Assembly (NCBI GenBank): GCA_019352875.1
Contig: JAAAFW010000015.1
Coordinates: forward strand, 1,404,583 to 1,468,582
DNA from: Pedobacter cryoconitis
Lineage (GTDB): Bacteria; Bacteroidota; Bacteroidia; Sphingobacteriales; Sphingobacteriaceae
DNA length: 64,000 nt
Reading direction: 5' to 3'
Positions within the stretch are counted from its first letter, which is position 1; every line of letters starts with the position of its first letter. This document shows positions 3,039 to 28,490 of this stretch, piece by piece. The notes under the pieces were generated by a model. The model was not told where the DNA came from and did no database searches. It was given only the letters and a program-made list of their open reading frames with translations. The position numbers and the translations under genes were made by a program.

Positions 3039-3107
3039 ATACCAACCGTTTGCGGTCAGGAATGAGACAAGACTAATTTTATTTTTTACTGGAAAATAAT
3101 AAGCGTG

Positions 3108-4571: not shown

Positions 4572-4617
4572 GAATCCCAGGATAACAGATATAATAATAT
4601 TAGATAGATAGTTGAAT

Positions 4618-6760: not shown

Positions 6761-6781
6761 ATTTTATTTAAAATTAAAGAT

Positions 6782-7747: not shown

Positions 7748-7767
7748 ATGTTTATAATTATAAGATA

Positions 7768-10108: not shown

Positions 10109-10115
10109 GCTGGAA

Positions 10116-11141: not shown

Positions 11142-11201
11142 ATTGAGATATGGGTATAGCTGGTTAATTAATAGTTTTTTATAGGGTTAAATAGAATTAA
11201 A

Positions 11202-12092: not shown

Positions 12093-12162
12093 ACCAGGTA
12101 AATATATATTCGGAATTTGAATATTATATTGAAAATTATGTTTGTCAAAAATAGAAAAAATT

Positions 12163-13101: not shown

Positions 13102-13109
13102 GACGGATT

Positions 13110-13982
13110 ATGAAACATGCTTACTTAATTATTGCCCATAATCAATTTTCTATATTACAACGGTTGCTTTCATGTTTGGATGACAGACGTAATGACATTT
13201 ATATACACTTTGATAAAAAGGTAAAGAAAATTCCAGTATTGAAAGTGCTTTATTCCAGATTATTTGTATTGGATGAGCGGGCCGATGTGAGGTGGGCAGA
13301 TGTTTCTCAGATACAATCTGAGTTTATTTTGTTTCAAGCTGCTTTTAACAATGGTCCGTATGCGTACTATCATACATTATCTGGCGTAGATATGCCGCTT
13401 AAATCTCAAAATGAGATTCATGATTTTCTTAAATCTCACGATGGTAAAGAGTTTATTGGTTATACTCAGGGTGATATTAGTAAAGAAATAGATCGAAAGG
13501 TAAAAAGATATCACCTTTTTTCCCGTTTTTTTAGAGCAGATAGCACCTATTTTTTCTCTCTGTTCAGATTATTGAGATTTGCCTTGCTTCGCTTTCAGTA
13601 TCTATTTATAATTCAGCGCCATAGAGGTGTTGATTTTAAAAAGGGTACATCCTGGGTAAGTGTGACGCAGACATTTGTCGAATTTTTACTGCCACACTAC
13701 AAGGAGGTAATGAAAATGTATAAGTATACTTTTTGTGCAGACGAGATCTTTTTGCAGACAATTTGTTGGAATTCTTTATTTCGTGATAGGTTGTACGACC
13801 CTAATAATGAAGGTCGCGGCAGTATGCGTATGATAGGCTGGAGAAATAATCAGCTAGTAGATTGGGAAGATAAGGATTTCGATATTTTAATGAACTCGGA
13901 TGCGTTGTTTGCCAGAAAATTTGATACTAAACATATAGAAGTTGTTGATAGAATACTGAAAAAGATAACGTCTTATGATTGA
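13110..13982 (+). CDS. Core-2/I-branching (GT14) glycosyltransferase
   Basis: 290 aa. The start MKHAYLIIAHNQFSILQRLL, HTLSGVDMPLKSQNEI, KGTSWVSVT and CADEIFLQTI are the usual conserved blocks of the bacterial branch of beta-1,6-N-acetylglucosaminyl or xylosyl transferases (DUF-type GT14). It may make a branch in the repeat unit. The stop overlaps the acyltransferase start by 8 bases, indicating tight coupling. Confidence 0.85.
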   Translation: MKHAYLIIAHNQFSILQRLLSCLDDRRNDIYIHFDKKVKKIPVLKVLYSRLFVLDERADVRWADVSQIQSEFILFQAAFNNGPYAYYHTLSGVDMPLKSQNEIHDFLKSHDGKEFIGYTQGDISKEIDRKVKRYHLFSRFFRADSTYFFSLFRLLRFALLRFQYLFIIQRHRGVDFKKGTSWVSVTQTFVEFLLPHYKEVMKMYKYTFCADEIFLQTICWNSLFRDRLYDPNNEGRGSMRMIGWRNNQLVDWEDKDFDILMNSDALFARKFDTKHIEVVDRILKKITSYD

Positions 13983-15087
13983 AAAAGTAACTAACAAGAC
14001 AAATTTTGAAGCGATTGAAGTACTCCGTTTTCCACTGATGATATTAGTAGTTTTTGTCCACGTCATTCCTGTTAACTTATATTCTATGCAACCATATTGG
14101 AGGACAAATAGCGCATATGTATTAGTTTCCGAGCTAATATCTCGTCATTTAGGTCAAATAGCTGTACCCTGTTTTTTTCTGTTTTCAGGTTATTTCTTCT
14201 TTCTAAAAATATACACATTTGATGTCCAGATTTACGCTGCACAAATAGTTAAACGTTTGAGGACCCTGCTTATTCCTTACCTATTATTGAATATAATTTT
14301 TGTTCTCATTGTACTATTGAAAAATTTTGTTTTCGGGAAGTTAGGTATGGCTCAGGATGAGTTATATTTCAGTATACAGCGCGCGTCTTTTTATGAAATA
14401 TTTTGGGGAGGACCTTTCTTATTTCCATTATGGTATCTCCGTGATTTGATTTGTATGATGGTGCTATCGCCAGTTTTCTATTTCTTCCTTAAATACGGTA
14501 AGGGCTTAGCATTGTCTCTGATTATCGTGGGATATTTAACGACATGGGAATTAAATATTACTGGGTTGAGTAGTACAGCTTTCCTGTTTTTTGGAACAGG
14601 CGCATTTATGGGAATATTTAAGTATGATTTGACGATGTTGGGAGCAAGATATAAAGGATGTAAATTTCTTATTTCGGCACTTTTTCTTGGGATGGTAAGT
14701 TATTTTACTGCGACGCCTTACTATGAATACTTGATACGTTTTTTTATCATTTCCGGAGTTATTTCGGCCTTATGTATTGGTAATATGTTACTCAAAACGA
14801 AAAAAGTGAAGTTTTATTTATCAGCATTGTCCTCTTCGGTTTTCTTTATTTATGCTATCCACGAAATGTACATCATAAACTGGTTGAAGGGAGGTTTTGC
14901 TAAGTTGCCTATGGCAAATAATGAGTGGGGAAAATTTATAGCCTATTTTACTATTCCTATTGTCTGTCTTATAGTCTGTTTGTGTCTTTATAGACTAATG
15001 CGGAGGTTTCTTCCTAACTTATTAGCTATTTTAATAGGTGGGAGAATGATTGTTAAATCTGTAAAAATTAATTTACATGGTGTCTGA
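13975..15087 (+). CDS. Acyltransferase family 3 membrane protein
   Basis: 370 aa with about ten membrane helices. The N-terminal block EAIEVLRFPLMILVVFVHVI carries the family's R and H (the acyltransferase-3 RxxA/VxxxH region), followed by a FFLFSGYFFF segment. These proteins O-acetylate or O-succinylate sugars on the polysaccharide using cytoplasmic acyl-CoA. It overlaps both neighbours (8 bases upstream, 11 bases downstream) and so is probably translated together with the GT14 and GT2 genes. Confidence 0.85.
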   Translation: MIEKVTNKTNFEAIEVLRFPLMILVVFVHVIPVNLYSMQPYWRTNSAYVLVSELISRHLGQIAVPCFFLFSGYFFFLKIYTFDVQIYAAQIVKRLRTLLIPYLLLNIIFVLIVLLKNFVFGKLGMAQDELYFSIQRASFYEIFWGGPFLFPLWYLRDLICMMVLSPVFYFFLKYGKGLALSLIIVGYLTTWELNITGLSSTAFLFFGTGAFMGIFKYDLTMLGARYKGCKFLISALFLGMVSYFTATPYYEYLIRFFIISGVISALCIGNMLLKTKKVKFYLSALSSSVFFIYAIHEMYIINWLKGGFAKLPMANNEWGKFIAYFTIPIVCLIVCLCLYRLMRRFLPNLLAILIGGRMIVKSVKINLHGV

Positions 15088-16072
15088 ACCATTAGTGTCT
15101 GTAATAATTCCTGTTTACAATGCAGAGAATACACTTCATATTGCCTTGGAATCTCTAAAAAAACAGACTTATCCACAATTGGAAATCATAATTGTAAACG
15201 ATAGTTCTACAGATAATACTTTAAATGTAATTGAGGGGTATATTCCGGTTTTTGAAAATAAGGGAATGCGGATAAAGGTTATTAGTCATGAACAAAATCG
15301 TGGGGTTGCTACTACAAGAAATACCGCGATTGAGCACGTGACAGGAGAATTTATTTATTTTTTGGATGCCGATGATCGTATTGAATCTAATGCCATTGAA
15401 CTTTTGGTGGAAGAGGCGATCTTGAAAAACGCAGATATTGTAGGCTGCAATTGGTTTCTAACATTCGAAAAGAATGAACGGAAAATGAATCAGCCTTCTT
15501 TTAATGAGCCAAAAGAGGCGATTCAAAAGATGCTTAATGGAACTATGCGTTGGAACTTATGGTTATTTATGGTACGTAAGTCTTTGTACATTAATCATCA
15601 AATTCGCTTTATTCCAGGAATGAATATGGGTGAAGATTTAACAGTAATGATTAAACTGTTTGTACACGCTTCCAGTGTGACTTATTTAAATAAAGCTTTG
15701 TACCATTATGGACAATCTAATGACCAATCATTAACGAAAATTTATTCAGATGTCCATATTCTGGAGGTGTCGACTAATGTAAAAGAGGTGGAACAGTACT
15801 TATTTATTCATGGCTTCTTAGATCAATTAGGTAACAGCATGGATTTTCTGAAATTGAATATTAAACTTCCACTTTTGATTTCGGACGATGAGGAGCGGTA
15901 TCGAACCTGGTTAGACTGGTTTCCAGAAAGTAATGATAAGGTTATGATTAATAAAGCACTCCCGTTTCGAACCCGATTTATACAATGGTTAGCCGTCAGG
16001 GAGCAGTTTTGGGCAATTAAGTTGTATTACCGTATAGTGATAAGTTTTATTTACGGTAGAGTTTACAGATAG
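15077..16072 (+). CDS. Glycosyltransferase family 2
   Basis: 331 aa. It has the GT2 start VSVIIPVYNAENTLHIALES, the IIVNDSSTDNTL nucleotide-binding loop and the LDADD metal motif at 96-100. The remaining 200 residues have no membrane anchor. It adds a sugar to the repeat unit. The gene overlaps the acyltransferase by 11 bases and abuts the polymerase gene. Confidence 0.87.
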   Translation: MVSEPLVSVIIPVYNAENTLHIALESLKKQTYPQLEIIIVNDSSTDNTLNVIEGYIPVFENKGMRIKVISHEQNRGVATTRNTAIEHVTGEFIYFLDADDRIESNAIELLVEEAILKNADIVGCNWFLTFEKNERKMNQPSFNEPKEAIQKMLNGTMRWNLWLFMVRKSLYINHQIRFIPGMNMGEDLTVMIKLFVHASSVTYLNKALYHYGQSNDQSLTKIYSDVHILEVSTNVKEVEQYLFIHGFLDQLGNSMDFLKLNIKLPLLISDDEERYRTWLDWFPESNDKVMINKALPFRTRFIQWLAVREQFWAIKLYYRIVISFIYGRVYR

Positions 16073-17361
16073 TGATTATGGGACATATTTTAAAAATTTT
16101 CGCAATCGGACTTGTTGTTAGTTTATTTTATTTTTCTTTTGGATTTACTTTTTTACCTTCGGGTATTAATACTAAAATGATCCTTGCTCTGTTTGGTTTG
16201 CTAACCGCATCCTACCACGCTATTCAAAACAGATCTTTAAAAGTAAGCCGACCGTTATTAGGTGCTGTCGGATTTGTCATTTTATTCTCAATAATTTGTT
16301 TTGTTTCTGTGGACTACCGTCATACGAACGATTTTTCTTATGCAACTTATTTTGTAAGTTTTGCCGTTTGGATTTTTTCCGCATATACAGTTTGCACATT
16401 GGTCCGATGGGGACATGGTACTGTCAATATATCGCTTATAGCTTTCCACCTAACCGGGGCCTGTTTTGTCCAGTGTATTTTGGCCCTGTTAATTGATTCG
16501 AGTCCTGATTTTCAGATATGGGTGAATCGATATATTGATCAGGGGCAAGATTTTCTTTTGGAAGTCAACCGCCTGTACGGTATTGGCGCTTCCTTGGATA
16601 ATGCAGGGGTACGGTTTTCTATAGTATTGATTATGATAGCTGGAGTTCTTTCTAATGAAGAGGCTGTGCGAAACAGCCGATTGAAAATTGTAATGCTGCT
16701 AACTGGATTTTTCACGATTATTGTTATTGGCAATATGATGTCCCGTACTACGTCAATAGGAACTGGTTTGGCACTATTATACTTTATGTGGAATACTGGA
16801 ATTTTCCGAATGGTTATCAAATCTGATTTTTTCAAATTTCATTTTATTTTTGGATTCATGTTTGTTCTGGCGTTATTGGTTACTGCTTACTTCTACCAAG
16901 TTGATAGTGTTTTCCATGATCAGATTAGATTCGCCTTTGAGGGGTTCTTCAACTGGATAGAGAAGGGGGAATGGCGTACCGATTCAACCGATAAACTAAA
17001 TAACAATATGTGGGTTTGGCCGACTGATTTGAATACATGGATTATCGGGACGGGATTGTTCGATAATTGGATATTCGGCACCGATATAGGTTACTGTCGC
17101 TTTATATTATATTGTGGGTTAACTGGATTTAGTGTTTTTGCGTTGTTCTTTGTATACAACGCGGCAGTATTTGCAACAAAATATCGACAATACCGGGGCA
17201 TGTTTTTCTTTTTTCTAGTCCTTACATTCATCATCTGGATCAAAGTTTCCACGGATATTTTTCTGATTTATGCATTGTTTTATTGCATGGATATGTTGAG
17301 TAATAATAAAGTCTTAAACCCAAAAAATGAAAATCGTTTATTGTATAGTCGGTACGTTTAG
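16072..17361 (+). CDS. Wzy-like O-antigen/EPS polymerase (membrane protein)
   Basis: 429 aa with about 11-12 hydrophobic segments and a large periplasmic stretch rich in Trp and Asp around residues 270-330 (FNWIEKGEWRTDSTD). No motif names the family, as is usual for Wzy proteins. The assignment rests on topology and on being the only unassigned polytopic protein in a locus that has Wzx, Wza and Wzc. The start may be GTG at 16072 or ATG at 16078. The next glycosyltransferase start lies 35 bases inside its 3' end. Confidence 0.65.
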   Translation: MIMGHILKIFAIGLVVSLFYFSFGFTFLPSGINTKMILALFGLLTASYHAIQNRSLKVSRPLLGAVGFVILFSIICFVSVDYRHTNDFSYATYFVSFAVWIFSAYTVCTLVRWGHGTVNISLIAFHLTGACFVQCILALLIDSSPDFQIWVNRYIDQGQDFLLEVNRLYGIGASLDNAGVRFSIVLIMIAGVLSNEEAVRNSRLKIVMLLTGFFTIIVIGNMMSRTTSIGTGLALLYFMWNTGIFRMVIKSDFFKFHFIFGFMFVLALLVTAYFYQVDSVFHDQIRFAFEGFFNWIEKGEWRTDSTDKLNNNMWVWPTDLNTWIIGTGLFDNWIFGTDIGYCRFILYCGLTGFSVFALFFVYNAAVFATKYRQYRGMFFFFLVLTFIIWIKVSTDIFLIYALFYCMDMLSNNKVLNPKNENRLLYSRYV

Positions 17362-18460
17362 TTCAGGAGGAATGGAGCGGGTGCTAGCTAATAAGGCGAA
17401 TTATCTGTCCAGACAAGGACATGAATTGGTCATTATAACCACCGATCAGCGAGATAGAAAATCTTATTTTGAACTGCATAATAATATAGTTCAGTATGAT
17501 TTAGGAATAAATTATACCGATACAATGAATAAGGGTGTTTTACGCAAAATATTGGCTTATTCGGCAAAGCAAAGGAACCATCGGCAAAAATTATCGGGAT
17601 TACTGTTACGTCTAAGAGCTGATATTGTGATTTCCATGTTTGATCACGATGCTTCTTTTTTGTTTAAGCTAAAAGATGGCAGTAGAAAGATTCTGGAGAT
17701 TCATTTTTCCCGTTACAAGCGCTTGCAATACGACCGGAAAGGTTTATGGAAGCTGATTGACCAATTCCGTAGCCGGAAAGATCTGCATACGGCTAAAAAA
17801 TATGACAGCTTCGTTGTATTGACTCATGAGGATAAAGAATATTGGGGAGATTTGCCTAATATAACTGTAATTCCAAACGCAAATAGCTTCATTCCTCAGA
17901 CACGTGCCGGTCTTCTTGAAAAGAAGGTAATAGCGGTGGGACGATACGATTATCAGAAAGGATTTGACGAGTTAATCAAGGCCTGGACGCACGTGTATAA
18001 AATGCATCCTGAGTGGTCGCTTTCAATTTTCGGACATGGACCATTGGCGGAGACATTGCAATCGTCGATTCAAACTCTGGGATTGCAGGATGTCGTGCAT
18101 TTGTGTGTCCCAGTCAAGAATATCGAAAAGGAATATGTGTCGAGTTCTATTCTCGTTATGACCTCACGTTACGAAGGTTTGCCTATGGCCCTTCTGGAAG
18201 GGCAGGTTTGTGGTTTGCCTTTAGTATCCTATGCTTGTAAATGTGGGCCAAATGATATTATTCAGGAGGGTAGAAATGGCTTTTTGTTAGCTGAAGGAGA
18301 TCAGGAGGGGCTGGCCAGCAAATTAGTCGTTTTAATGGATGATGCTGTACTGCGGAAACAGATGGGATGTGCCTCGGCTGAACTATCTGAAAACTATTCC
18401 GAAGAACCTATTATGAAACAATGGTTGGCACTGTTTAAACAGTTAACCGAAAATATTTAA
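17327..18460 (+). CDS. Glycosyltransferase family 4
   Basis: 377 aa GT-B protein. The N-terminal glycine motif TFSSGGMERVLANKA and the C-terminal donor-binding block SRYEGLPMALLEGQVCGLPL (E-x7-E type) are typical of GT4. The sugar donor cannot be predicted. The start ATG lies inside the 3' end of the polymerase gene in another frame. It is one of three consecutive GT4-type genes. Confidence 0.88.
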   Translation: MKIVYCIVGTFSSGGMERVLANKANYLSRQGHELVIITTDQRDRKSYFELHNNIVQYDLGINYTDTMNKGVLRKILAYSAKQRNHRQKLSGLLLRLRADIVISMFDHDASFLFKLKDGSRKILEIHFSRYKRLQYDRKGLWKLIDQFRSRKDLHTAKKYDSFVVLTHEDKEYWGDLPNITVIPNANSFIPQTRAGLLEKKVIAVGRYDYQKGFDELIKAWTHVYKMHPEWSLSIFGHGPLAETLQSSIQTLGLQDVVHLCVPVKNIEKEYVSSSILVMTSRYEGLPMALLEGQVCGLPLVSYACKCGPNDIIQEGRNGFLLAEGDQEGLASKLVVLMDDAVLRKQMGCASAELSENYSEEPIMKQWLALFKQLTENI

Positions 18461-18466
18461 TATTTA

Positions 18467-19597
18467 ATGTTTGAAATCCAAAACTCTCGAAAGACAATCG
18501 TCATATCAGCGGTTAACCTAAATATAGGTGGCACGCTGACTATTTTAAATGATTGCTTACGCTATCTTTCTGAGTTAGCTCTCGAAGGTAATTACAAGGT
18601 CATTGCATTGGTGTATAAGCAGGAGTTGGCTGATTATCCAAATATCGAATATATTGAGACCCAATGGCCTAAAAAGCGCTGGATAAATCGCTTATGGTAC
18701 GAATACGTTTCGATGGAGAAAATCTCCAGGGAAATCGGACCTGTTTATTTGTGGCTTTCGCTGCATGATACAACGCCAAATGTTATAGCCGAAAGAAGAG
18801 CTGTATACTGCCATAATCCATTTCCATTTTACAAATGGAAATGGCGTGAATGTTTTTTTGCTCCGAAAATTGTATTATTTGCATTGTTTTCAAGATTTAT
18901 TTATCAAAAAAACATACATCGCAATGATATGGTTATTGTGCAGCAACAATGGCTAAAGGATTCGTTTCAGAGCTTGTTTAATCTGGATAAGAACAGAATT
19001 GTAGTAGCCGTACCCGATGTGAAAGAGGTTGATTTTTCACATAATGGTGTTCAGATACCATCAAAAGACTACGAATTTGTATATGCTGCGTCTCCCAATA
19101 GCCACAAAAATTTTGAATGTATATGCCGTGCCGTTGAGCTTCTTGAAGAGAGAGATGGGCTGACGAATTTCAAGGTAAATATAACTATAAACGGAAAAGA
19201 GAATAAATATGCTAAATGGCTCATCAAAAACTGGGGGCACTGTTCAGCTTTGAATTTTGTTGGGTTTTTAGACAGGACTAAACTTTTTGGTTATTATACC
19301 ACTAGTAATTGCTTAATCTTTCCGTCAAAGGTAGAAACATGGGGTCTGCCAATCTCTGAATTTTCAATTCTGGACAAACCAATGTTACTGGCAGATCTGT
19401 CTTACGCTAAAGAGACAGCTGCAGGTAGTAAATATGTCGCATTTTTCGATCCGGACCGGCCTGACGTGTTAGCGCGCCAGATGAAACAATTGATTGAAGG
19501 CGATCTGTCGTTTTTAAAAGTAGTGCCGGGCGTTCCAATTGGAGGGCCAGTTGCACATTCCTGGGAGAAATTGTTCCGTATTCTTTTAAAACCATAA
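18467..19597 (+). CDS. Glycosyltransferase family 4-like
   Basis: 376 aa GT-B protein. The N-terminal VNLNIGGTLTILNDCLRYLS is the acceptor-side glycine motif. The C-terminal IFPSKVETWGLPISEFSIL and the following DLSYAKETA match the donor-binding block of GT4 enzymes that use deoxy-hexoses or mannose. It starts 6 bases after the previous GT4 gene. Cytoplasmic repeat-unit assembly is inferred from context. Confidence 0.85.
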   Translation: MFEIQNSRKTIVISAVNLNIGGTLTILNDCLRYLSELALEGNYKVIALVYKQELADYPNIEYIETQWPKKRWINRLWYEYVSMEKISREIGPVYLWLSLHDTTPNVIAERRAVYCHNPFPFYKWKWRECFFAPKIVLFALFSRFIYQKNIHRNDMVIVQQQWLKDSFQSLFNLDKNRIVVAVPDVKEVDFSHNGVQIPSKDYEFVYAASPNSHKNFECICRAVELLEERDGLTNFKVNITINGKENKYAKWLIKNWGHCSALNFVGFLDRTKLFGYYTTSNCLIFPSKVETWGLPISEFSILDKPMLLADLSYAKETAAGSKYVAFFDPDRPDVLARQMKQLIEGDLSFLKVVPGVPIGGPVAHSWEKLFRILLKP

Positions 19598-19621
19598 TCA
19601 CTAGCTGAAATAAAATAGAAC

Positions 19622-20743
19622 ATGAAAATACTTCAAGTCGGTAAATTTTACCCTATACGCGGGGGAGTAGAAAAGGTTATGTACGATCTAATGCTAGGTC
19701 TCGCTGTCCGGAATATCCACTGTGATATGCTTTGCGCAACTACTGAAGATCATCCGGGTGGCATTTTGCCGGTCAGCCCATATGCTAATGTGATAGCCAT
19801 ACCGACGCAGATTAAATTCGCGGCTACGATGATCGCTCCAAAAATGATCGTGAAACTTCGTCAAATAGCCGGAGATTACGATATCATCCATATTCATCAC
19901 CCTGATCCTATGGCAACCCTGGCTCTTTTTCTATCAGGTTATAAAGGCAAGGTGGTTTTACACTGGCATAGCGATATTCTTAAACAAAAAATGTTGTTGA
20001 AATTGTATAAGCCGTTGCAGGATTGGGTGATTAAAAGAGCAGATCTGATAGTTGGAACTACTCCGGTATATGTAAATGACTCTCCTTTTCTAAGTAAAAT
20101 GCAGCACAAAGTAGATTATATCCCTATTGGTGTCGAGCCGGTAATTCCAGAAGTTGCGCAAGTCGAAATAATTCGTCAAAAGTATGGAGAAAAGAAATTG
20201 ATTTTCTCACTGGGAAGATTGGTGGAATATAAGGGCTATGAATATCTGATTCGTGCCGCGAAGCACCTCAATGAAAATTATCAGATCATTATAGGAGGGA
20301 AAGGCCCGCTTCATGACGAATTACAGCAGTTAATACTGGATCTAAATGTAAAGGATCGTGTCGAGCTAATTGGATTTATATCTGACGATGATCTTCCTTC
20401 TTATTATGGTGCCTGTGATATTTTCTGCCTGAGCTCGATTTTGAAAACCGAAGCTTTTGCAATTGTACAGATCGAAGCAATGTCTTGCTCAAAGCCCATT
20501 GTATCCACACATATTCCTGGATCTGGTGTAAGTTGGGTAAATGCAGACGGACAATCCGGACAGGTTGTAGAGCTCGAAAATCCAAAAGCACTCGCTGATT
20601 CAATTAACAATATTTTGCAAGAAAAAGAAAAATACGACCAGCTCTCCGCTGGAAGTTTACAACGTTATCAGACATTTTTTACGCGCGAAAAAATGGTTGA
20701 TAAATGTCTGAACTTATATCATAAAGTGTGCTCAAATCTCTGA
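19622..20743 (+). CDS. Glycosyltransferase family 4
   Basis: 373 aa. The N-terminus has FYPIRGGVEKVMYDL, the middle has HIHHPDPMATLALF, and the donor site reads KTEAFAIVQIEAMSCSKPIV, all standard for GT4 mannosyl- or glucosyl-type transferases. FSLGRLVEYKGYEYLI marks the start of the C-terminal Rossmann fold. It is the last glycosyltransferase before the PqqD/HprK-like cassette. Confidence 0.9.
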   Translation: MKILQVGKFYPIRGGVEKVMYDLMLGLAVRNIHCDMLCATTEDHPGGILPVSPYANVIAIPTQIKFAATMIAPKMIVKLRQIAGDYDIIHIHHPDPMATLALFLSGYKGKVVLHWHSDILKQKMLLKLYKPLQDWVIKRADLIVGTTPVYVNDSPFLSKMQHKVDYIPIGVEPVIPEVAQVEIIRQKYGEKKLIFSLGRLVEYKGYEYLIRAAKHLNENYQIIIGGKGPLHDELQQLILDLNVKDRVELIGFISDDDLPSYYGACDIFCLSSILKTEAFAIVQIEAMSCSKPIVSTHIPGSGVSWVNADGQSGQVVELENPKALADSINNILQEKEKYDQLSAGSLQRYQTFFTREKMVDKCLNLYHKVCSNL

Positions 20744-20762: not shown

Positions 20763-20846
20763 ATGCACAAAATGAACAGAGGTATATTTCCTTCTATTTC
20801 ATATTTTGAACAGAATTTAACGGCGGAAGATATTATTGCTAAATAA
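20763..20846 (+). CDS. 27-aa mini-ORF overlapping the peptidase start
   Basis: A frame with ATG at 20763 (second in-frame ATG at 20772) and TAA at 20844-20846 encodes 24-27 residues, with NRGIFPSISYFEQNL in the middle and the end AEDIIAK. Its stop lies 11 bases past the TTG at which the next gene must begin, since that frame has no ATG upstream of the active site. This arrangement would allow translational coupling. Position at the head of a PqqD, peptidase and exporter cassette makes it a candidate substrate or leader peptide. No family is recognised, it has no lasso-type ring-forming Asp/Glu at positions 7-9 after a Gly, and it may be a chance frame. Confidence 0.35.
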   Translation: MHKMNRGIFPSISYFEQNLTAEDIIAK

Positions 20847-21273
20847 AGATAGAATTACGATACCCAACAAACTTCTTTTTGAACAGGTACTGAGTTACAT
20901 AAAGCAAGGCAAATATGTAACCATCCGGGTCAAAGGGACCAGTATGCTACCTTTCCTAAAGGAAGGCAACAGGGTATCGCTGAAGTCTTTCCATGCAGGT
21001 GAGTTAACCAAAGGTATAATTGTATTGGCAAACGTACACGGACAGATGATACTTCATCGTGTAGTAAGGTATAATAATACAACAATTTATCTCGCGGGTG
21101 ACGGTAATGTTTCGGAGCATGAAGTCGTGAGCTACGGTGATGTGGTGGCAACTGCCTTCAGCGTTTATCGCGGTGAGACCGAAGTTAAATTAAATCAGAG
21201 ATGGTTGCGTTATCTGGGGCAAGTCTGGTACTGGATCAGGCCTGTCCGAAGAGTAGCGAGGAAATTGTTCTGA
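20836..21273 (+). CDS. S24/S26-family signal-peptidase-like protease (SipW-type dyad)
   Basis: 145 aa from a TTG codon; the frame is closed by a stop at 20818-20820 and contains no ATG before the active site, so a non-ATG start is required. The serine motif is VKGTSMLPF with Ser36. Further on, ILHRVV places a His at 74, the arrangement of SipW/ER-type signal peptidases, which use Ser-His instead of Ser-Lys. A GD box (LAGDGN) follows. No clear membrane helix is visible, unlike true signal peptidases, so it may be a cytoplasmic or peripheral processing protease. The PqqD-like gene follows after 25 bases. Confidence 0.75.
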   Translation: MLNKDRITIPNKLLFEQVLSYIKQGKYVTIRVKGTSMLPFLKEGNRVSLKSFHAGELTKGIIVLANVHGQMILHRVVRYNNTTIYLAGDGNVSEHEVVSYGDVVATAFSVYRGETEVKLNQRWLRYLGQVWYWIRPVRRVARKLF

Positions 21274-21298
21274 AAATGGTGTTGTAATTAACGGCTTT

Positions 21299-21583
21299 AT
21301 GAAAATAAGAGAAGATTTAGTGTTGAGGCATGTTGGAGATGATCATATTATTGTCGACCCGGGGCAGGATATGGTTGATATGTCGAAGGTTTTTACGCTG
21401 AACGATTCTGCAGCCTGGTTATGGGAACAGTTGGCAGGGCAGGAATTCACCAGGGAGACTATGGTGAATTTGCTAATCGAACGCCATGATTTGCCATATA
21501 AACAAGCCGAAGAAGATATTAACAAGCTGGTTGAGGTTTTAGAAGAAAATGGATTGCTGGACAAATTAGCTAATGCCGGATAA
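21299..21583 (+). CDS. PqqD-family peptide-binding (RRE) protein
   Basis: 94 aa. Layout and motifs match the PqqD winged-helix family: an N-terminal beta hairpin (DDHIIVDPGQDMVDMSKV), FTLNDSAAWLWEQLAG, and a C-terminal helix pair ending LVEVLEENGLLDK. PqqD proteins bind leader peptides of ribosomal peptides as RiPP recognition elements and pass them to modifying enzymes. Free-standing PqqD proteins beside HprK-like kinases form an HPr-rel-A type set in sequence databases. It overlaps the nucleotidyltransferase gene by 11 bases. Confidence 0.85.
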   Translation: MKIREDLVLRHVGDDHIIVDPGQDMVDMSKVFTLNDSAAWLWEQLAGQEFTRETMVNLLIERHDLPYKQAEEDINKLVEVLEENGLLDKLANAG

Positions 21584-22670
21584 CAAAATTCACACGGTAT
21601 TACTGTCTCTGTTGCGCTCAGGTCTTTGGGGTGAGAATGAAAATAATAAGATACTCCCTTTATCTGATGAGCAATGGATTCAGCTGTATAATTGTGCCAG
21701 ACAACATACTATAGAGGGGATTGTATTTGACGGCCTTCAACGGTTACCTTTCGACATGTTGCCTCCACGTGAGCTGATGCTGAAGTGGACCGTGAAAATC
21801 GATCAGATTGAACGGCGTAATATGCAGATGAATATCTGTATAAAAGAGGAACTGGAGTTTTTTAATGATCAGGGTATTTATCCGGTATTACTTAAGGGAC
21901 AGGGTGTTGCTTCCTGCTATGATGTTCCGGGACATAGGGTTTGCGGAGATGTAGATTGGTATTTTGAACAGAAAAAGGAATACCATAAAGCAAATAGAAT
22001 GCTTAAGCAAAAGGGGATTAGTATCTCAGGCACAGCTGGATTCAGTACAGAATATGTATGGCGTGGGATTCTTACAGAACATCATACACGAATGTTTGAT
22101 ATTCATAATCCTTTTTGTTTCACATATCTCGATCGTTTGCAGCAACAATTTTATAACGAAAGACTGAAAAGGGAGTTTCAGGGACACGCTTTGCTTTTGC
22201 CCGCACCTATACTGATGATCTTGCAGGTAAATGTTCATATTCTGAAGCATCTGTTATCTTTTGGTGTTGGGCTAAGGCAATTATGCGATTCAGCGAGAGT
22301 ATATCATACTTTTCGAACGAAGGTAAATGGGCAGGAGCTTAAGCAGATTTACCAAACATTGGGAATTCTCAAATGGATACATCTGCTGCATACTGTGCTG
22401 GTCAAATTCGTAGGGTTGCCGTTGACGTCTTTACCTTTTGAACTTCCTGACGCGAGCGACGCGGACTGGATGATGGACGAAATTTTGATGTCAGGGAACT
22501 TTGGCTTTTTTCATCCCCGGTTTGAAGGAAAAATGGAAAATGCTGGTTTCGTGAGAAATCATGTGACCAGAAGGGTATGGTCAAATATGAGAAGATACTT
22601 TAAGTTTGCGCCAATGGAGGCTGTTAGCTTTCCGCTGGTGCAATTTTACTCAAAATTAGCAGTAAAATAA
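21573..22670 (+). CDS. NTP_transf_5 nucleotidyltransferase family protein
   Basis: 365 aa. The DNA-polymerase-beta-like core is visible as PVLLKGQGVASCYDVPGHR followed by CGDVDWYF (catalytic GD-x-D at about 125-128). The rest is helical (HILKHLLSFGVGLRQLCD). Members of this uncharacterised family occur in lasso peptide and EPS clusters, where they may add a nucleotide or phosphate group to a peptide or sugar. Its start overlaps the pqqD-like gene by 11 bases and the ABC exporter begins 3 bases after its stop, so it belongs to this cassette. Confidence 0.75.
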   Translation: MPDNKIHTVLLSLLRSGLWGENENNKILPLSDEQWIQLYNCARQHTIEGIVFDGLQRLPFDMLPPRELMLKWTVKIDQIERRNMQMNICIKEELEFFNDQGIYPVLLKGQGVASCYDVPGHRVCGDVDWYFEQKKEYHKANRMLKQKGISISGTAGFSTEYVWRGILTEHHTRMFDIHNPFCFTYLDRLQQQFYNERLKREFQGHALLLPAPILMILQVNVHILKHLLSFGVGLRQLCDSARVYHTFRTKVNGQELKQIYQTLGILKWIHLLHTVLVKFVGLPLTSLPFELPDASDADWMMDEILMSGNFGFFHPRFEGKMENAGFVRNHVTRRVWSNMRRYFKFAPMEAVSFPLVQFYSKLAVK

Positions 22671-22673
22671 CCA

Positions 22674-24299
22674 ATGAATACCGCCGCTCTACATCAAATC
22701 AATTGGGTGTGGTCTATAACGAAAGGACATAGACCGGCCTTACTGATTTATTTTTTGCTTGAACTCTTCGCAATAGCACTTTCATTGCTATTTGTGCTTT
22801 GGTCTAAAAGGGCAGTGGATATGGCAATGCAGCCGTCTGCTGCTGACATGAAAATGGTGCTGATACTTGTTGTGACCAGTTTATTGTTTGCTTTGGCCAT
22901 CCGTGGCTTTTCAACCTGGTTAAATGAACGTACCAGTTTGAAGATGGGGCTGGATTTGCAGCAAAAAATGATCGAAGTACAGATGATGTCTGTATGGAAG
23001 GTTGTAAAAGACTGGCACTCGGGTGATATACAGTCACGTATTCATTCAGATTGTAATGAAGTGGTTAGTATGGTGGCGTATTCGGGTATTTCGTTTCTGC
23101 TGACGCTGATCAGATTGCTAGCTTCTTTTGGATTTCTTTGGAGTATGGATCCGATGCTTGCCTTCATAATTTTGGCTATTACACCACTCTTTTTATTTTC
23201 TAAGGTATACTTCAGGAGAATGAGGCGCCTAAGTAAGGAAGTTAAACAGAAAGAAAGCGATTTCTGGAGAATTTTACAGGAGAATTTAAGGTTCCGCATA
23301 GTAATCCGTGCAATGGATTTACTTTCGGGTAGGAGAGAAAAGCTGGAGAATAGCCAGGATTTAATTTACAAATTAAAATCAGAACAGTTGAATTTTTCCA
23401 GCCTTACACAGTTGGCTATGAAATTCACAATCAATATTGGATACTTGCTGACATTTATCTGGGGAGTTTATCGCTTACATGCCGGAGAGATTTCATTTGG
23501 TACGATGACGGCTTTTTTACAGCTAGTTGGAAGAATTCAGACACCTGTTTTAACACTGAGTGGTTTTTTTTCGCTTTTTATCAGGTTTAGAACTTCCCTC
23601 GAAAGAATAATGGAGTTAATGTCAGGAGAAAAAGAACCGGTTGTTGCCCCGCAAAAAATAAAGGGACTCACTACCCTTTATATTGATAACCTGACTTTCA
23701 AATATGAGGACCAAAAGGTTATTGATGGCTTGAATATGAAAGTTAAGATTGGTGAACCAACTGCAATTATTGGTTCGAGCGGGAAAGGTAAGACGACTTT
23801 AATGCGCTTATTACTGGCTTTGCTACAGCCAGATAATGGCTGGATATGGTTAGCAGATTGTCGTCAGAAATACGTATTGAATGCCGGTCATCGTGTGAAC
23901 TTTGCCTACGTTCCGCAGGGAAATACATTGTTTAGCGGCTCTATTCGGGAAAATTTGTTAATCGCGACGCCTGAAGCAAGCCAGGAGAAACTAAACTATG
24001 CTTTATGGCTTTCGTGCGCTGAATTCGTGTATCATTTACCACACGGTATAGATACTATAGTTGGGGAGTCAGGACATGGTTTATCGGAAGGACAGGCTCA
24101 GCGTATTGCTATCGCACGGGCAATGATGCGCGACTGTGATATTTGGCTCTTTGATGAGATTACATCTGCGTTGGATAAAGAAACAGCCAGCCGTTTAACC
24201 GAAAGATTAATAAAAGCCGGAGAAAATAAGCTCTGCATATTCGTTACGCACGATTTTAATCTGGCGGAAAATTGTAACCAAACCATATATATTAATTGA
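22674..24299 (+). CDS. ABC exporter, fused membrane and ATPase domains
   Basis: 541 aa. Residues about 1-310 hold six membrane helices and about 330-541 an ATPase domain: Walker A IGSSGKGKTT near 363-372, signature LSEGQAQR near 470, Walker B IWLFDE near 490. The signature has Glu in place of the second Gly of LSGGQ. There is no C39 peptidase domain at the N-terminus, so any leader cleavage must be done elsewhere, plausibly by the nearby Ser/His protease. The protein probably works as a homodimer exporting a peptide, lipid or glycolipid. It overlaps the HprK-like frame at its end. Confidence 0.85.
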   Translation: MNTAALHQINWVWSITKGHRPALLIYFLLELFAIALSLLFVLWSKRAVDMAMQPSAADMKMVLILVVTSLLFALAIRGFSTWLNERTSLKMGLDLQQKMIEVQMMSVWKVVKDWHSGDIQSRIHSDCNEVVSMVAYSGISFLLTLIRLLASFGFLWSMDPMLAFIILAITPLFLFSKVYFRRMRRLSKEVKQKESDFWRILQENLRFRIVIRAMDLLSGRREKLENSQDLIYKLKSEQLNFSSLTQLAMKFTINIGYLLTFIWGVYRLHAGEISFGTMTAFLQLVGRIQTPVLTLSGFFSLFIRFRTSLERIMELMSGEKEPVVAPQKIKGLTTLYIDNLTFKYEDQKVIDGLNMKVKIGEPTAIIGSSGKGKTTLMRLLLALLQPDNGWIWLADCRQKYVLNAGHRVNFAYVPQGNTLFSGSIRENLLIATPEASQEKLNYALWLSCAEFVYHLPHGIDTIVGESGHGLSEGQAQRIAIARAMMRDCDIWLFDEITSALDKETASRLTERLIKAGENKLCIFVTHDFNLAENCNQTIYIN

Positions 24300-24310
24300 T
24301 TAACGGGAAA

Positions 24311-25282
24311 ATGGTAAATCATATTCAACAAGACACGATCCCGCAGAAAGCAACTTATAAAGTTGCCGGGCTTTATCTGGAACTCGTTTTTCCGGCGATA
24401 CTTAAACGCGCAGAAATATTGCCTTCTTTCGAGCCTTTTTTTATAGAATACGACGTAACCGAAAAGAGTATATGTTCAATAGAATTAACTTTTCAAGCGC
24501 CATTAACACAAAATGATGGTGGGAAACTTCTGAGTGATTTATCGGTTGTGTGGGGTGAAAATTTCCGTTTTTATGAAGGCGAGGACTACTATACAACGAC
24601 TATATGGAATGAATTTGACGACGGGTTGTGGAAAATGAAAAGTAGTAAAGATTTCAGTCATTCAGTCATATATCTGGTAAACAATGGGTTCTCTATAAAT
24701 AATGCTCTGAGCTGGCTGGTTATGGTTGCTTTCGGACAGGCTTGCCTATTACATCATACTATTTTGATACATGCTTCTGTAATTGCCAAAAGTGGAGAAG
24801 GTTATGCTTTTTTGGGTAAGAGCGGAACAGGGAAAAGTACGCACAGCAGACTATGGCTGGATCATATTCAAGGGGCGCAATTGCTTAACGACGATAACCC
24901 GGCAGTACGGCTTGAAAATGATGGGCAGGTTTATATCTACGGTACACCGTGGAGCGGCAAGACTAGCTGCTACAAAAACATCAAAGTTCGTTTACAAGCA
25001 TTTGTAAGGTTAAAGCAGTCCTCTTATAATCACCTGGCAGAGCAAAGGGGAACGGCAGCTTTTGTCTGTTTGCTGCCAAGTTGTACAGCTATACGCTGGA
25101 ACAACCGCCTTTTCACGGCGATGAGTAATACTGTCGAAGCAATTTTGCATAGAGTTATTATTACTGAACTAGGTTGCCTGCCCAACCGGGATGCAGCCCT
25201 GCTCTGCTACCATGAAATTTTAAAAATTGATAAACAAACTGTACAAAATTCCGGCTACCAGGAGGTTACGGGAGCTAACTAA
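24311..25282 (+). CDS. HprK-like kinase (HPr kinase/PEPCK-type P-loop protein)
   Basis: 323 aa from the ATG at 24311; a TTG at 24296 inside the ABC gene end is an alternative. The P-loop FLGKSGTGKSTHSRLWL lies near residues 166-182, followed by NDDNPAVR and GTPWSGKTSCY, as in HprK-related proteins of lasso and EPS clusters rather than true HPr kinase. The N-terminal 140 residues are divergent. In lasso clusters a related kinase phosphorylates the precursor C-terminus; the substrate here is unknown. It closes the cassette, and the Wza gene follows after 14 bases. Confidence 0.75.
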   Translation: MVNHIQQDTIPQKATYKVAGLYLELVFPAILKRAEILPSFEPFFIEYDVTEKSICSIELTFQAPLTQNDGGKLLSDLSVVWGENFRFYEGEDYYTTTIWNEFDDGLWKMKSSKDFSHSVIYLVNNGFSINNALSWLVMVAFGQACLLHHTILIHASVIAKSGEGYAFLGKSGTGKSTHSRLWLDHIQGAQLLNDDNPAVRLENDGQVYIYGTPWSGKTSCYKNIKVRLQAFVRLKQSSYNHLAEQRGTAAFVCLLPSCTAIRWNNRLFTAMSNTVEAILHRVIITELGCLPNRDAALLCYHEILKIDKQTVQNSGYQEVTGAN

Positions 25283-25296
25283 TTAATTATACCTAT

Positions 25297-26091
25297 ATGA
25301 AAAAATGTCTACTTATTTCCTTTGTCGGCTGTGTATTGCTCTTAAACTCGTGTGTTGTGAGTAAAAAAGTGGTCTATGTCCGCGATATGGAGCCGGATAC
25401 GACTTATCGTGCCATGTCTGCCCCTCCATTACGTGTTCAGACGAGTGATCGTCTGAGTATTATCGTTAGTGCTAAAACTCCTGAACTGGCTATTCCTTTC
25501 AATCAGGGTGTTGGTGCATACCAGGTAAATGATCAGGGTGATATATCTGCCGGATCATCTTCAGCAACGGAAATTCAAGGTTACCTGGTCGATGATAGCG
25601 GTGAAATCGAATTTCCCATACTAGGTGCATTTAAAGTCGAGGGTATGACACTGGACGAGGTCAAAAATTTGATTAAGAGCCAATTGGTTAAGGAAAAATT
25701 GATTAACAATCCTGTTGTCAAGGTCGAATTATTAAACCTTAAAATCAACATGATGGGTGAAATCAATAAGATAGGCGTGCTAACTGTACCTGACGCCAGA
25801 ATTACGCTTCTTGAAGCGATATCACGAGCAGGTGGGTTGACGGTAAATGCATCTCCGGGTAAAATAACGGTAATTCGTGAGGAAAATGGTGTACGCAAAA
25901 TGGTGGTCAATGACATCCGTTCAAGGGATATTTTTAATTCCTCCACTTATTATCTGCAACAAAATGATATCGTATATATCGAACCGCTGGATGCGCAGCC
26001 AACTCCCAAAGTACAGACTAATTGGCGATATATCACCACAGGTCTCGGCTTAGTCGCAACTGTATTTACTATCATCAATGTTTTTAAATAA
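25297..26091 (+). CDS. Polysaccharide export outer-membrane lipoprotein (Wza-like)
   Basis: 264 aa. Lipoprotein signal with Cys19 (LLLNSC). The Poly_export domain follows: RVQTSDRLSIIVSAKTPEL, then GEIEFPILGAFKVEGMTLDE, and an SLBB-like stretch IGVLTVPDARITLLEAISRA. A C-terminal hydrophobic helix (YITTGLGLVATVFTIINVF) is the membrane anchor typical of Bacteroidota Wza proteins. It forms the outer-membrane channel for the polymer together with the Wzc protein encoded 5 bases downstream. Confidence 0.9.
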   Translation: MKKCLLISFVGCVLLLNSCVVSKKVVYVRDMEPDTTYRAMSAPPLRVQTSDRLSIIVSAKTPELAIPFNQGVGAYQVNDQGDISAGSSSATEIQGYLVDDSGEIEFPILGAFKVEGMTLDEVKNLIKSQLVKEKLINNPVVKVELLNLKINMMGEINKIGVLTVPDARITLLEAISRAGGLTVNASPGKITVIREENGVRKMVVNDIRSRDIFNSSTYYLQQNDIVYIEPLDAQPTPKVQTNWRYITTGLGLVATVFTIINVFK

Positions 26092-26096
26092 GCGGT

Positions 26097-28490
26097 ATGG
26101 ATAATCTTAATAACATCAACCTTATGCCAAAGGCAAAGGAAGAAAAATCCATCAACCTGTTGGATATTCTAAAGTACCTGCTCTTTCAGTGGAAGTGGTT
26201 TCTATTGTCAATATTCATATTTGGAGGTTATTACCTATATCAATATAGCAAAACGCCATTTATATACAGCCGTTCGGAGACCATTATGATTAAGACTCCG
26301 CTGAATACGATGCCGGGTACCCGTATCACACGAGCTAATTATTACAATACTGTGAATGTTGCCAGTGAGATTCTGCAGCTGCGTTCGAAGGAGTTAATGC
26401 GTAAAACTATTGATCGAATTGAAGGTGATATAAGTTATACTGTGAAAAAAGGGTTGAGGGAATATGAACTCTATAGAGACGCACCTGTTAAAGTCCAGTT
26501 TATAGATGCTAAACCTGAAGTTGGGTTGTCTTTTCAAATAGAATCTGTGGACCAGGACCACGTAGCACTTTCTTCATTTTCAAAAGGAAATCCCGGCCAG
26601 GTGCTAAAGATTAAACTGAATCAAACAGTTCGAACGCCTATAGGTGTACTTAAAGTTACCAGGTCTCCTGGATATAAAGTCTCAGCTTTTGACAAGCCTG
26701 TTACTGTCAGAAAATATCCGCGTGAAGCAATGGTCGGCTATTATATGGCCAACTTGAAAATTCAGCAAATGGAGGAAGACGCTTCCTTATTACAGGTTTT
26801 TGTGGAAGATAGTTCACTGCAGCGTGCAGATGATCTGATTACTACATTAATAACAGTCTATAATGAAGACGCAGTTGAGGACAAAAACAAAGTTGCAATC
26901 AATACAGCTCAATTTATAATGGATCGGATCCAGATCATACAAAGTGAGCTGGGATCCGTTGAGTCTAATTTAGAGAACTTAAAAGTATCAAATCAGGGAA
27001 TTGACGTCAACGCGGCCAGTCAGATGTATGTTAGTGAAGGAATGCAGCACGAATCTGCTGGTAATGATGTCGAGACTCAGCTGAAGCTGGTAGAGATGAT
27101 GCAAAACTATATGCGTGATGCAGATAAGAAGGATGATCTGATTCCCAATAATACAGGATTGGTTGATGTTAATATCGAAAACCGGATTAATGAATATAAT
27201 ACAGCCTCACTTAGACGAAACCGTCTGCTGGAAGGAAGCAGCTCTGAAAATCCTATTGTTCAAGATTTAAATGTAACGCTCGCTGCCATGCGCAAAAACA
27301 TTTACCGGGCAATGGAAAATGCAGTGAGTGGCTTACAAATTAAGATTAATAATCTAAAAAAAGAACAAACATTAGCGCGAAATAAGGCTATGGCTGTTCC
27401 TGCTAAACAGCGCATGATGCTTTCAGTAGAGCGTCAGCAAAAGGTTAAAGAAGAACTGTATCTGTTACTGCTTAATAAACGCGAAGAAAACGCAATTAAT
27501 CAGGCGATGACAGAAGATAATGTACGGATTATTGACCCTGCTTCAGGTTCTGATGCGCCTATTTATCCTAGTCGTTTTAAGAAAATAGCGTTAGGTGTAG
27601 GAATCGGTGTTGCGTTGCCTGCAATAGTGTTTTTATTAATGCTAATGCTGGATACAGGGGTACGCACCCGTAAAGACATTGAAGAAGTATTGACTGTGCC
27701 TTTTCTGGGTGAGATTCCATTCACGCTTAAAGATAATGGTGGCGAGGCAGTTGTTGAGGAAAAAGGAAGGGATTATACATCTGAAGCATTTCGTATTCTC
27801 CGGACAAACATTGGTTTTATGGCTGCGGGAAAAGAGCAGCGCGTAATCACATTTACATCTTTTAATATTGGAGCCGGAAAAACTTTTACGGCAATTAACC
27901 TTGCTGCGAGTTTTAGGTATTTAAATAAGAAAGTACTGTTGTTGGATTTAGATCTTCGAAAAGGGACATTAAGCAACAGAGTAAATGCCCAAAGAGAAAA
28001 AAGTTTGGGTGTAACAAACTTTTTAGCGAATCCAAAAGTGACTGTTGATGACATTATTTATCAGGGCCTTGTTGGCGGCATTATAGATGTTATTCCTATC
28101 GGTGTGATCGCACCAAATCCCGTAGAACTGTTATTGAGCACACGGTTGGAGGAGTTGATCGTTGAATTGAAAAAAAGATACGACTATATTATTGTAGACA
28201 ATGTACCTGTTAATCTGGTTGCCGATGCGTCAATTGTAGATCGTATATCTGAGTTAACCATTTTTGTGGTTCGCTCAGGGAAGATGGACCGCAGACAACT
28301 GCCTGAGATTCAAAGCTTATATGATCAGCGGAAGATTTCCCATATGGCTGTGCTGCTGAATGGTGTCCGTCTAAATAAAGGCGGTTATGGATACGGTTAT
28401 GGCTACGGTTATGGGTACGGTTACGGTTATGGCTATGGTAATGAAACCAAAAAAACTTTATGGGATAAATTATTTGGAAAGCGGCGATAA
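26097..28490 (+). CDS. Wzc-like tyrosine autokinase / chain-length determinant
   Basis: 797 aa. Wzz-type N-terminus with a membrane helix near residues 36-52 and a long coiled-coil periplasmic region (250-480), a second helix near 500-520, then a BY-kinase domain: Walker A NIGAGKTFT near 590, Walker A' VLLLDLDLRKG and Walker B YDYIIVDN. It controls EPS chain length and export with Wza. The tyrosine-rich C-terminus, where BY-kinases autophosphorylate, is a run of nine Gly-Tyr units before NETKK. Tyr phosphorylation of such tails controls assembly in the family. No separate Tyr phosphatase (Wzb) gene is visible in this window. Confidence 0.93.
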   Translation: MDNLNNINLMPKAKEEKSINLLDILKYLLFQWKWFLLSIFIFGGYYLYQYSKTPFIYSRSETIMIKTPLNTMPGTRITRANYYNTVNVASEILQLRSKELMRKTIDRIEGDISYTVKKGLREYELYRDAPVKVQFIDAKPEVGLSFQIESVDQDHVALSSFSKGNPGQVLKIKLNQTVRTPIGVLKVTRSPGYKVSAFDKPVTVRKYPREAMVGYYMANLKIQQMEEDASLLQVFVEDSSLQRADDLITTLITVYNEDAVEDKNKVAINTAQFIMDRIQIIQSELGSVESNLENLKVSNQGIDVNAASQMYVSEGMQHESAGNDVETQLKLVEMMQNYMRDADKKDDLIPNNTGLVDVNIENRINEYNTASLRRNRLLEGSSSENPIVQDLNVTLAAMRKNIYRAMENAVSGLQIKINNLKKEQTLARNKAMAVPAKQRMMLSVERQQKVKEELYLLLLNKREENAINQAMTEDNVRIIDPASGSDAPIYPSRFKKIALGVGIGVALPAIVFLLMLMLDTGVRTRKDIEEVLTVPFLGEIPFTLKDNGGEAVVEEKGRDYTSEAFRILRTNIGFMAAGKEQRVITFTSFNIGAGKTFTAINLAASFRYLNKKVLLLDLDLRKGTLSNRVNAQREKSLGVTNFLANPKVTVDDIIYQGLVGGIIDVIPIGVIAPNPVELLLSTRLEELIVELKKRYDYIIVDNVPVNLVADASIVDRISELTIFVVRSGKMDRRQLPEIQSLYDQRKISHMAVLLNGVRLNKGGYGYGYGYGYGYGYGYGYGNETKKTLWDKLFGKRR
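28383..28436 (+). repeat. Nine tandem Gly-Tyr codons in the Wzc tail
   Basis: Nine consecutive GGN-TAY hexamers encode (GY)9. The codons vary (GGT, GGA, GGC, GGG; TAT, TAC), so the repeat is conserved as protein rather than as a freshly expanded DNA repeat. It is the presumed autophosphorylation tail. Confidence 0.95.

Follow-up and report, generated by a model that had tools for sequence, protein, structure and literature searches.

Linear polyphosphorylated peptides (LPPs) belong to the ribosomally synthesized and post-translationally modified peptides (RiPPs), and their machinery comprises the SpI peptidase LppS, the RiPP recognition element (RRE) LppB, the kinase LppK, the NTP transferase LppN and the exporter LppD, which Bacillota encode within their capsular polysaccharide loci (Popov et al., 2026, PMC13381572). 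LPP leaders share the consensus YxxPxVLxHQxIxFETxxS, are cut after T-1, and precede a serine (S3) that carries several phosphates; LppS requires LppB, and LppN had no visible effect in a heterologous test (PMC13381572). LPPs were described as restricted to Bacillota and their role was stated to be unknown (PMC13381572). Here, we analyzed a 64,000-nucleotide stretch of the 4.93-Mb genome of a soil Pedobacter (G000:C10:1404583-1468582; hereafter the window), in which five packed genes (20836-25282) lie within a locus for exopolysaccharide (EPS) production. It is probable that this cassette and a small gene at 1044-1226 form a Bacteroidota variant of the LPP-type RiPP machinery, the product of which acts at the surface with a lipoprotein and EPS. 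An initial annotation of the window knew of no characterized example of such a gene set; LPP is the counterpart (PMC13381572). No published report of LPPs in Bacteroidota was found among the best-ranked literature matches listed, which were open-licence papers.

The cassette and the LPP clusters have the same five enzyme classes, a polysaccharide locus and no cyclase. All five genes of the window are on the same strand, with overlaps or short gaps between them, and ORF and domain matches confirmed both this packing and the C39-less exporter of the initial annotation. The first gene (20836-21273, + strand, TTG start; PF00717) encodes an LppS-like S24/S26 (SipW/Sec11-like) leader peptidase. Its profile matched SEC11 signal peptidases (E 1.2e-5), and S36, H74 and D89 are kept in 52/52 cassette homologues. 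A SipW-like peptidase with Ser-His-Asp is therefore shared with LPP, although the His-Asp spacing is 15 here and 25 in LppS. The second gene (21299-21583, +; PF05402, E 1e-14) encodes a discrete PqqD protein, an LppB-like RRE, with N35 kept in 56/57 and D73 in 57/57 homologues. We read these residues as corresponding to N33 and D70 of LppB, which hold YxxP, equating them by spacing and neighboring residues and not by alignment with LppB.

The remaining genes encode an LppN/PsmN-like nucleotidyltransferase of the NTP_transf_5 family (NTP5; 21573-22670, +; PF14907, E 4.5e-36), in which K108, G109, G125, D126 and D128 are kept in 88/88 homologues, an LppD-like ABC exporter of 541 aa (22674-24299, +; PF00664 and PF00005) with MsbA-like architecture and no match to a C39 peptidase domain, and an LppK-like HprK-type kinase (24296-25282, +). 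LPP clusters likewise have an HprK-like kinase, an NTP transferase and an MsbA-like exporter without a peptidase domain. The kinase was assigned by conserved motifs (G177-T-G-K-S-T182, N198-D199-D200 and P202, kept in 49/49 homologues) and by an AF2 model (pLDDT 86.3), with which Foldseek retrieved PEPCK (2.4e-6) and HprK/P (2.5e-5); searches of PDB sequences with the HprK and NTP5 profiles gave no useful relatives. The initial annotation had noted that such parts are known from HPr-rel-A type gene sets; we rejected that filing for the kinase, the resemblance of which is weak (25.2 bits, far below the cut-off of 200 of NCBIfam TIGR04352).

A 27-aa mini-ORF (20763-20846, +), named in the initial annotation, was considered as the precursor. 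It has no YxxP, is absent from loci L036, L037 and L041, and among the loci compared was found in the window and Pedobacter antarcticus only; it was discarded as a precursor. A second layout, with an Mfa_like_1 lipoprotein and often a TlpA-like protein, was noticed, and we therefore inspected the spaces before lipoprotein genes. Small conserved ORFs were found there. That of the window (1044-1226, +) encodes a candidate precursor of 60 aa (MKKEKKIKYEAPTLEVVLVELEQGIAAASVTVSGGNAGSPYQPQVDDWGDGGGTTFNGDL) with a YEAP (YxxP) leader and the junction ELEQGIA|AAS. The ORF ends 31 bp ahead of a gene for a fimbrillin-like lipoprotein, the presumed partner of the peptide (Mfa_like_1; 1258-2967, +; PF13149, 31.1 bits, cut-off 27), and is approximately 20 kb from the cassette. 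Thus, the feature reaches beyond the cassette, to the precursor and lipoprotein at 1044-2967.

In an alignment of 17 precursors, M1, Y9, E20, E22, A26 and S29 are invariant, and the leader consensus of the family is YxAPxxxVxxIELEQGIAAxS. A precursor profile had 1044-1226 as its sole match at E<=1 in its own genome (E 2.3e-23), and no Pfam or NCBIfam model matched the five members scanned, at E up to 10. Compared with that of P. antarcticus, the window precursor differs at 15 codons synonymously and at 4 non-synonymously; judged from sequence, it is under purifying selection. YxxP and a conserved Ser just past the cut site are shared with LPP, with a Y-to-S distance of 20 here and 18 in LPP. 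When Ser29 was aligned to S3 of LPP, the predicted cut fell after Ala26, with Gly or Ser at -3 and Ala at -1, giving a predicted core of approximately 34 aa that begins AASVTVSGG. Position +3 is Ser in 65/66 unique precursors by script, the search pattern not forcing it; inspection by eye gave Ser for the remaining one, L052. Position -1 is Ala in 64/66 by eye (Cys in one, Met in L052) and position -3 is Gly or Ser in 65/66, both counts being partly forced by the pattern. Inverted repeats of >=13, sought as a sign of phase-variable promoters before precursors, were not found in six upstream regions.

To place the cassette in a wider context, PF14907 was searched in 395 phylum genomes, 59 of which had a match, and in 399 family genomes, where it matched 135 and exceeded the cut-off in 107, and 140 stretches were analyzed, with genes labeled by profiles grown from window seeds. 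The genes co-occurred strongly. The strict order S24-PqqD-NTP5-ABC-HprK was found in 36/108 family loci, including the window and P. antarcticus, a gene order far beyond chance. The location between the last glycosyltransferase and Wza, pointed out in the initial annotation, recurred in these loci: a family 4 glycosyltransferase (GT4) gene directly precedes 35/36 strict-order cassettes, and Wza-Wzc follow 34/36 on the same strand. Fifteen of the 108 family loci are of lasso type (cyclase or B2 protease nearby). Wza or Wzc lay within approximately 9.5 kb of 76/90 non-lasso loci (a count that excludes the odd loci L076, L172 and L175) versus 5/15 lasso-type loci.

The precursor profile matched 82/399 family genomes. 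One of these, in G080 (17 residues within a 439-aa ORF), was judged false, as was a match in G447 (a 323-aa frame). Precursors were matched in 74/75 cassette-type genomes versus 7/324 others (table 74/1/7/317), where cassette-type means a full non-lasso NTP5 and not all five genes; the Fisher p-value for this table ignores shared descent and was not relied upon. Note that 71/75 cassette-type genomes belong to one genus, g68. More independent cases were Pedobacter G000 and G111, which are near relatives, Pedobacter G024, G611 (genus g241) and G536 (another family). There was no precursor in any of 17 family genomes with only other kinds of NTP5, mostly lasso-type (G005, the loci of which were not fetched, and G682 being unclassified). 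Among the 395 phylum genomes, believable matches were found only in G000, G199, G544 and G536, all with the cassette; loci were examined from 32 of the 59 NTP5-bearing genomes. In G536, the peptide lies after Wzc and before a 728-aa ORF with a lipoprotein-like start. The set there is partial (PqqD-NTP5-HprK-Wza-Wzc, with S24 at the edge of the stretch and no ABC labeled), and its S24 was the only one found with the S24 profile among the 34 phylum stretches L042-L075.

Precursors were also paired with lipoproteins. In 55/57 small loci around precursors (two of the loci overlap), an Mfa-type lipoprotein gene comes directly after the precursor; of the exceptions, one is a locus edge and one a false match. 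By a stricter rule, an ORF of >=200 aa follows 61/66 unique precursors, and 53/61 of those ORFs have a lipobox-like Cys. In the window lipoprotein, Cys28 (at the lipobox place), Cys415 and Cys564 are invariant in 23 aligned homologues, and a TlpA homologue lies directly 3' of 11/27 Mfa genes in the census; the invariant C415 and C564 and the adjoining TlpA-like genes suggest a disulfide. The lipoprotein model (mean pLDDT 75.5) matched Bacteroides adhesins, Mfa2 and FimA with E 1.5e-6 to 4.7e-4; by TM-score, these matches are weak (0.29-0.48 by target).

Several family genomes have at least 15-16 precursor matches, and G633 and G544 have 15 each. Multiple precursors are scattered along the chromosome, a layout that is apparently one of many dispersed substrates for one machinery; the window Pedobacter has one precursor and one cassette. 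In three genomes with 6, 8 and 7 precursor-lipoprotein pairs, the similarity of cores correlated with that of their lipoproteins (r 0.80, 0.97 and 0.79; permutation p 0.008, 0.0002 and 0.006), whereas the corresponding values for leaders were -0.20, 0.23 and 0.46 (p 0.75, 0.09 and 0.02). After removal of lipoprotein pairs with similarity >=0.5, the Spearman coefficients of the cores were 0.43, 0.68 and 0.50, with nominal p-values (0.11 in the first genome), and those of the leaders were near zero (-0.07, -0.12 and -0.02). Core sequences thus track the partner lipoprotein more closely than leader sequences, which fits a peptide and lipoprotein that act together and a leader that serves one shared PqqD.

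The relationship to Bacillota was also examined with one tree each for HprK, NTP5 and PqqD, built from 19-22 cassette sequences selected from the census, 24-27 sequences of lasso type and 3-4 others. The window proteins grouped with an LPP-like cluster of Butyrivibrio plasmid pNP243 (Bacillota), apart from Bacteroidota lasso-type proteins, with supports of 100/99, 91/98 and 99/96, respectively. The cluster of this Butyrivibrio fibrisolvens plasmid is LPP-like by gene content (HprK, a 57-aa YVKP peptide, PqqD, S24/S26 and pssD/E). Further, one stretch of Phocaeicola massiliensis (OY725995; L235) contains a matching peptide ORF, PqqD, NTP5, ABC, HprK and S24, together with a 1089-aa protein that has a lipoprotein-like start by eye and no Pfam match. 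Prevotella oral taxon 299 has PqqD-S24-HprK. The LPP-like RiPP type thus appears to extend from Bacillota to Bacteroidota, with related clusters in Phocaeicola and oral Prevotella.

Homology and co-occurrence give good support for a product made as an LPP-type phosphopeptide, and we infer the individual steps as follows. PqqD would grip the YxxP of the 60-aa precursor, and the HprK-like kinase would phosphorylate the invariant Ser29, the predicted core position +3. The NTP transferase may then cap the Ser29 phosphate with a sugar or nucleotide. According to a review, hexoses on phospho-Ser depend on PsmN, a relative of LppN, although a host enzyme might be what adds them (PMC9266682). The SipW-like peptidase, aided by PqqD, would cut after the conserved Ala26 (G-I-A|), and the ABC exporter would take the linear core peptide to the periplasm. 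Finally, the product may work at the cell surface with the adjoining fimbrillin-like lipoprotein and the EPS of the same locus; this role is reasoned and is the least certain part of the proposal. The view of the initial annotation that the set modifies, cleaves and exports a peptide in step with EPS genes was largely retained, with HPr-rel-A rejected for the kinase, another precursor and a known counterpart.

Several observations weigh against this proposal. Seven genomes have a precursor match and no counted NTP5. Five of these, all of g68 (G623, G723, G827, G831 and G863), have precursor-like peptides but lack a full NTP5 and any match to PqqD or HprK; they may have lost the machinery or may use the peptide otherwise. 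Among the other two, G797 has PqqD and HprK, and in G825 HprK is broken by a stop; PqqD, HprK and NTP5 were the cassette genes looked for in these genomes. Conversely, no precursor was matched in G735 despite its cassette. (In G812, an assembly of approximately 240 contigs, NTP5 occurs without PqqD and with an HprK fragment only.) The Met at -1 in L052 and a Ser at +2, not +3, in the Phocaeicola precursor depart from the predicted cut site. Some of the correlation between cores and lipoproteins could stem from co-duplication of neighboring genes. Bacillota are represented in the trees by a single cluster, with long branches flagged, and the PqqD profile, searched against the PDB, preferred lasso RREs (TfuB1, 1.1e-7; PbaB1, 0.0043) over LppB (0.16). 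The leaders also lack the second half of the Bacillota LPP consensus, HQxIxFET, which makes the system an LPP-related variant and not a strict LPP member.

An alternative that we consider unlikely, and that survives best, accepts the cassette as LPP-type machinery and denies that the lipoprotein-adjoining YxxP peptides are its substrate: the true precursor would be another small ORF, and the YxxP peptides would function with the lipoprotein independently of the cassette. The five g68 genomes without PqqD, HprK and full NTP5 agree with it, as does the frequent location of the peptide gene outside the cassette in EPS-type loci. It is opposed by the distribution of the peptide over cassette-type and other genomes, by YxxP and the invariant Ser in an LPP-like register, and by Phocaeicola L235, outside the family, where peptide ORF and machinery share one stretch. 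A different role for the peptide, as an encoded anchor or primer of EPS, is rather improbable: the NTP transferase would place the first sugar on phosphorylated Ser29, the glycan of the locus would be attached to the peptide, and the cognate fimbrillin-like lipoprotein would hold the glycopeptide at the cell surface. If this were true, the peptide-lipoprotein repertoire would govern the site and manner of polymer display.

The initial annotation had also allowed for decoration of a polymer or lipid. In such a scheme, the cassette would modify EPS or its lipid carrier, by phospho-sugar addition and flipping by the ABC protein, and PqqD would be a relic. The fixed place between GT4 and Wza and the frequency of Wza or Wzc near non-lasso loci suit it. 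Cassette genes occur, however, in L102, L111, L104, L120 and L122 without labeled Wza/Wzc or glycosyltransferases, and the PqqD recognition residues are kept in 56-57/57 homologues. Further, 7768-9177, possibly a Wzx flippase although it had no Pfam match, would make the ABC protein unneeded for flipping. We disfavor decoration as very unlikely, because the same genes also lie apart from labeled glycosyltransferases or Wza/Wzc and beside a precursor/lipoprotein pair. That the locus is an ordinary lasso-peptide cluster with cyclase and B2 protease located elsewhere is scarcely credible: PqqD, HprK, NTP5 and ABC are common to phospho-lasso clusters, Bacteroidota included, but neither an Asn-synthetase-like cyclase nor a B2 protease is in the ORF lists of the locus (as the initial annotation had it), PF13471 (B2-type protease) has 0 matches in the own genome, one Bacteroidota lasso-type cyclase used as query had no match there (a weak search with no positive control), an S26 peptidase is present instead, trees separate the cassette proteins from those of lasso type, and none of the 17 genomes with only other NTP5 kinds has the precursor.

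The EPS assembly genes of the window (5600-20743, +) encode an initiating transferase (PF00953), an epimerase, glycosyltransferases of families 2, 4 and 8, and an acyltransferase; we tentatively take 7768-9177 to be Wzx-like and 16072-17361 Wzy-like, neither of which had a Pfam match. The cassette is followed by genes for a Wza-type polysaccharide export lipoprotein (25297-26091, +; PF02563 and SLBB), a Wzc-type tyrosine autokinase and chain-length protein (26097-28490, +; PF13807, TIGR01007 over the cut-off) with a long Gly-Tyr repeat tail (GYGYGY...) at its C-terminal end, and OmpA (starting at 28560, after Wzc). Between the lipoprotein gene and a gene for a probable accessory protein, DUF5106/TlpA thioredoxin-like (4612-5544, +; PF17127 and thioredoxin-like domains), lies a gene for an S41-family protease (3105-4571, +; PF03572), an uncertain accessory that is not recurrent (2 matches in the whole census).

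P. antarcticus was the closest named relative found (NTP transferase 88% identical) and the only one returned by a contig scan for relatives; when 198 relatives were searched with a single protein, the cassette NTP5 turned up in G000, G111 and G024 alone. In a genome-wide search of 31 g68 genomes, PqqD was found in 30; in 19 of these, PqqD and an NTP5 share a contig but are 38-82 kb apart, indicating that the cassette can be split. Lone NTP5 genes of g68 (L082, L088, L093, L138 and similar) occur in varying places on the strand opposite to capsule-type loci, and their contig often carries PqqD at a distance of approximately 50 kb. Other layouts were also observed. L172 and L175 (G066 and G760) have PqqD-HprK-GT2-GT2-ABC-NTP5, a run in which neither S24 nor a cyclase was labeled and which may represent a glycosylated type of RiPP. 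L060 (G200; 6911-9784) has another reduced layout, PqqD-HprK-NTP5, near which neither S24 nor a cyclase nor B2 was labeled and for which no precursor was matched. In L234 (Segatella copri plasmid NZ_CP085934; 6258-11083), NTP5 lies by glycosyltransferases and a radical SAM protein, and the stretch carries no PqqD or S24 label. In two f15 genomes, lasso-type clusters (Asn-synthetase-like, ABC, HprK, PqqD, B2 and NTP5) are directly downstream of Wzc (L045:165-9779 and L056:9891-17586, from Wzc to B2, with NTP5 beyond). The EPS link is thus not confined to the S24 type.

If the cassette and 1044-1226 are an LPP-type system, as we propose, peptides of a type with no stated role would now be linked to adhesin-like lipoproteins and EPS, and the lipoprotein neighbor would be the first clue to their function. 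Because this branch provides an EPS operon and a dedicated partner that resembles surface adhesins, the role of the peptide becomes directly testable; the window Pedobacter has one precursor and one cassette only.

Among known systems, phosphorylated lasso peptides of the paeninodin/pseudomycoidin type share the HprK-like kinase, NTP transferase, discrete PqqD and ABC exporter with the window, which, in contrast, has no macrolactam cyclase in the locus, no PF13471 protease in the genome and an S26-like peptidase. The likeness to HPr-rel-A lies in the P-loop region of the kinase, which resembles the TIGR04352 model. PEP-CTERM/exosortase systems also combine EPS-linked machinery with many dispersed substrates and a shared sorting signal, which we regard as an analogy only (PMC1569441). 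Their signal is C-terminal, whereas that of the window type is an N-terminal leader. To our knowledge, their enzymes are unrelated to those of the cassette; no exosortase search was made. The type V fimbrial proteins of Bacteroidales (Mfa2 and FimA) have a fold like that of the partner lipoprotein, with modest TM-scores; unlike them, the window lipoprotein has an extra C-terminal region that bears two invariant Cys, and its gene is preceded by a small peptide gene. Compared with LPP, which was called Bacillota-restricted and has 1-3 precursor ORFs per cluster, the window type is hosted by Bacteroidota, has precursors that are dispersed and can number 15 or more in a genome, and pairs the precursor with a fimbrillin-like lipoprotein in a Gram-negative Wza/Wzc export context. 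Thus, what is new here is the Bacteroidota host, the dispersed precursors on one machinery, the lipoprotein partner and the covariation of core and lipoprotein.

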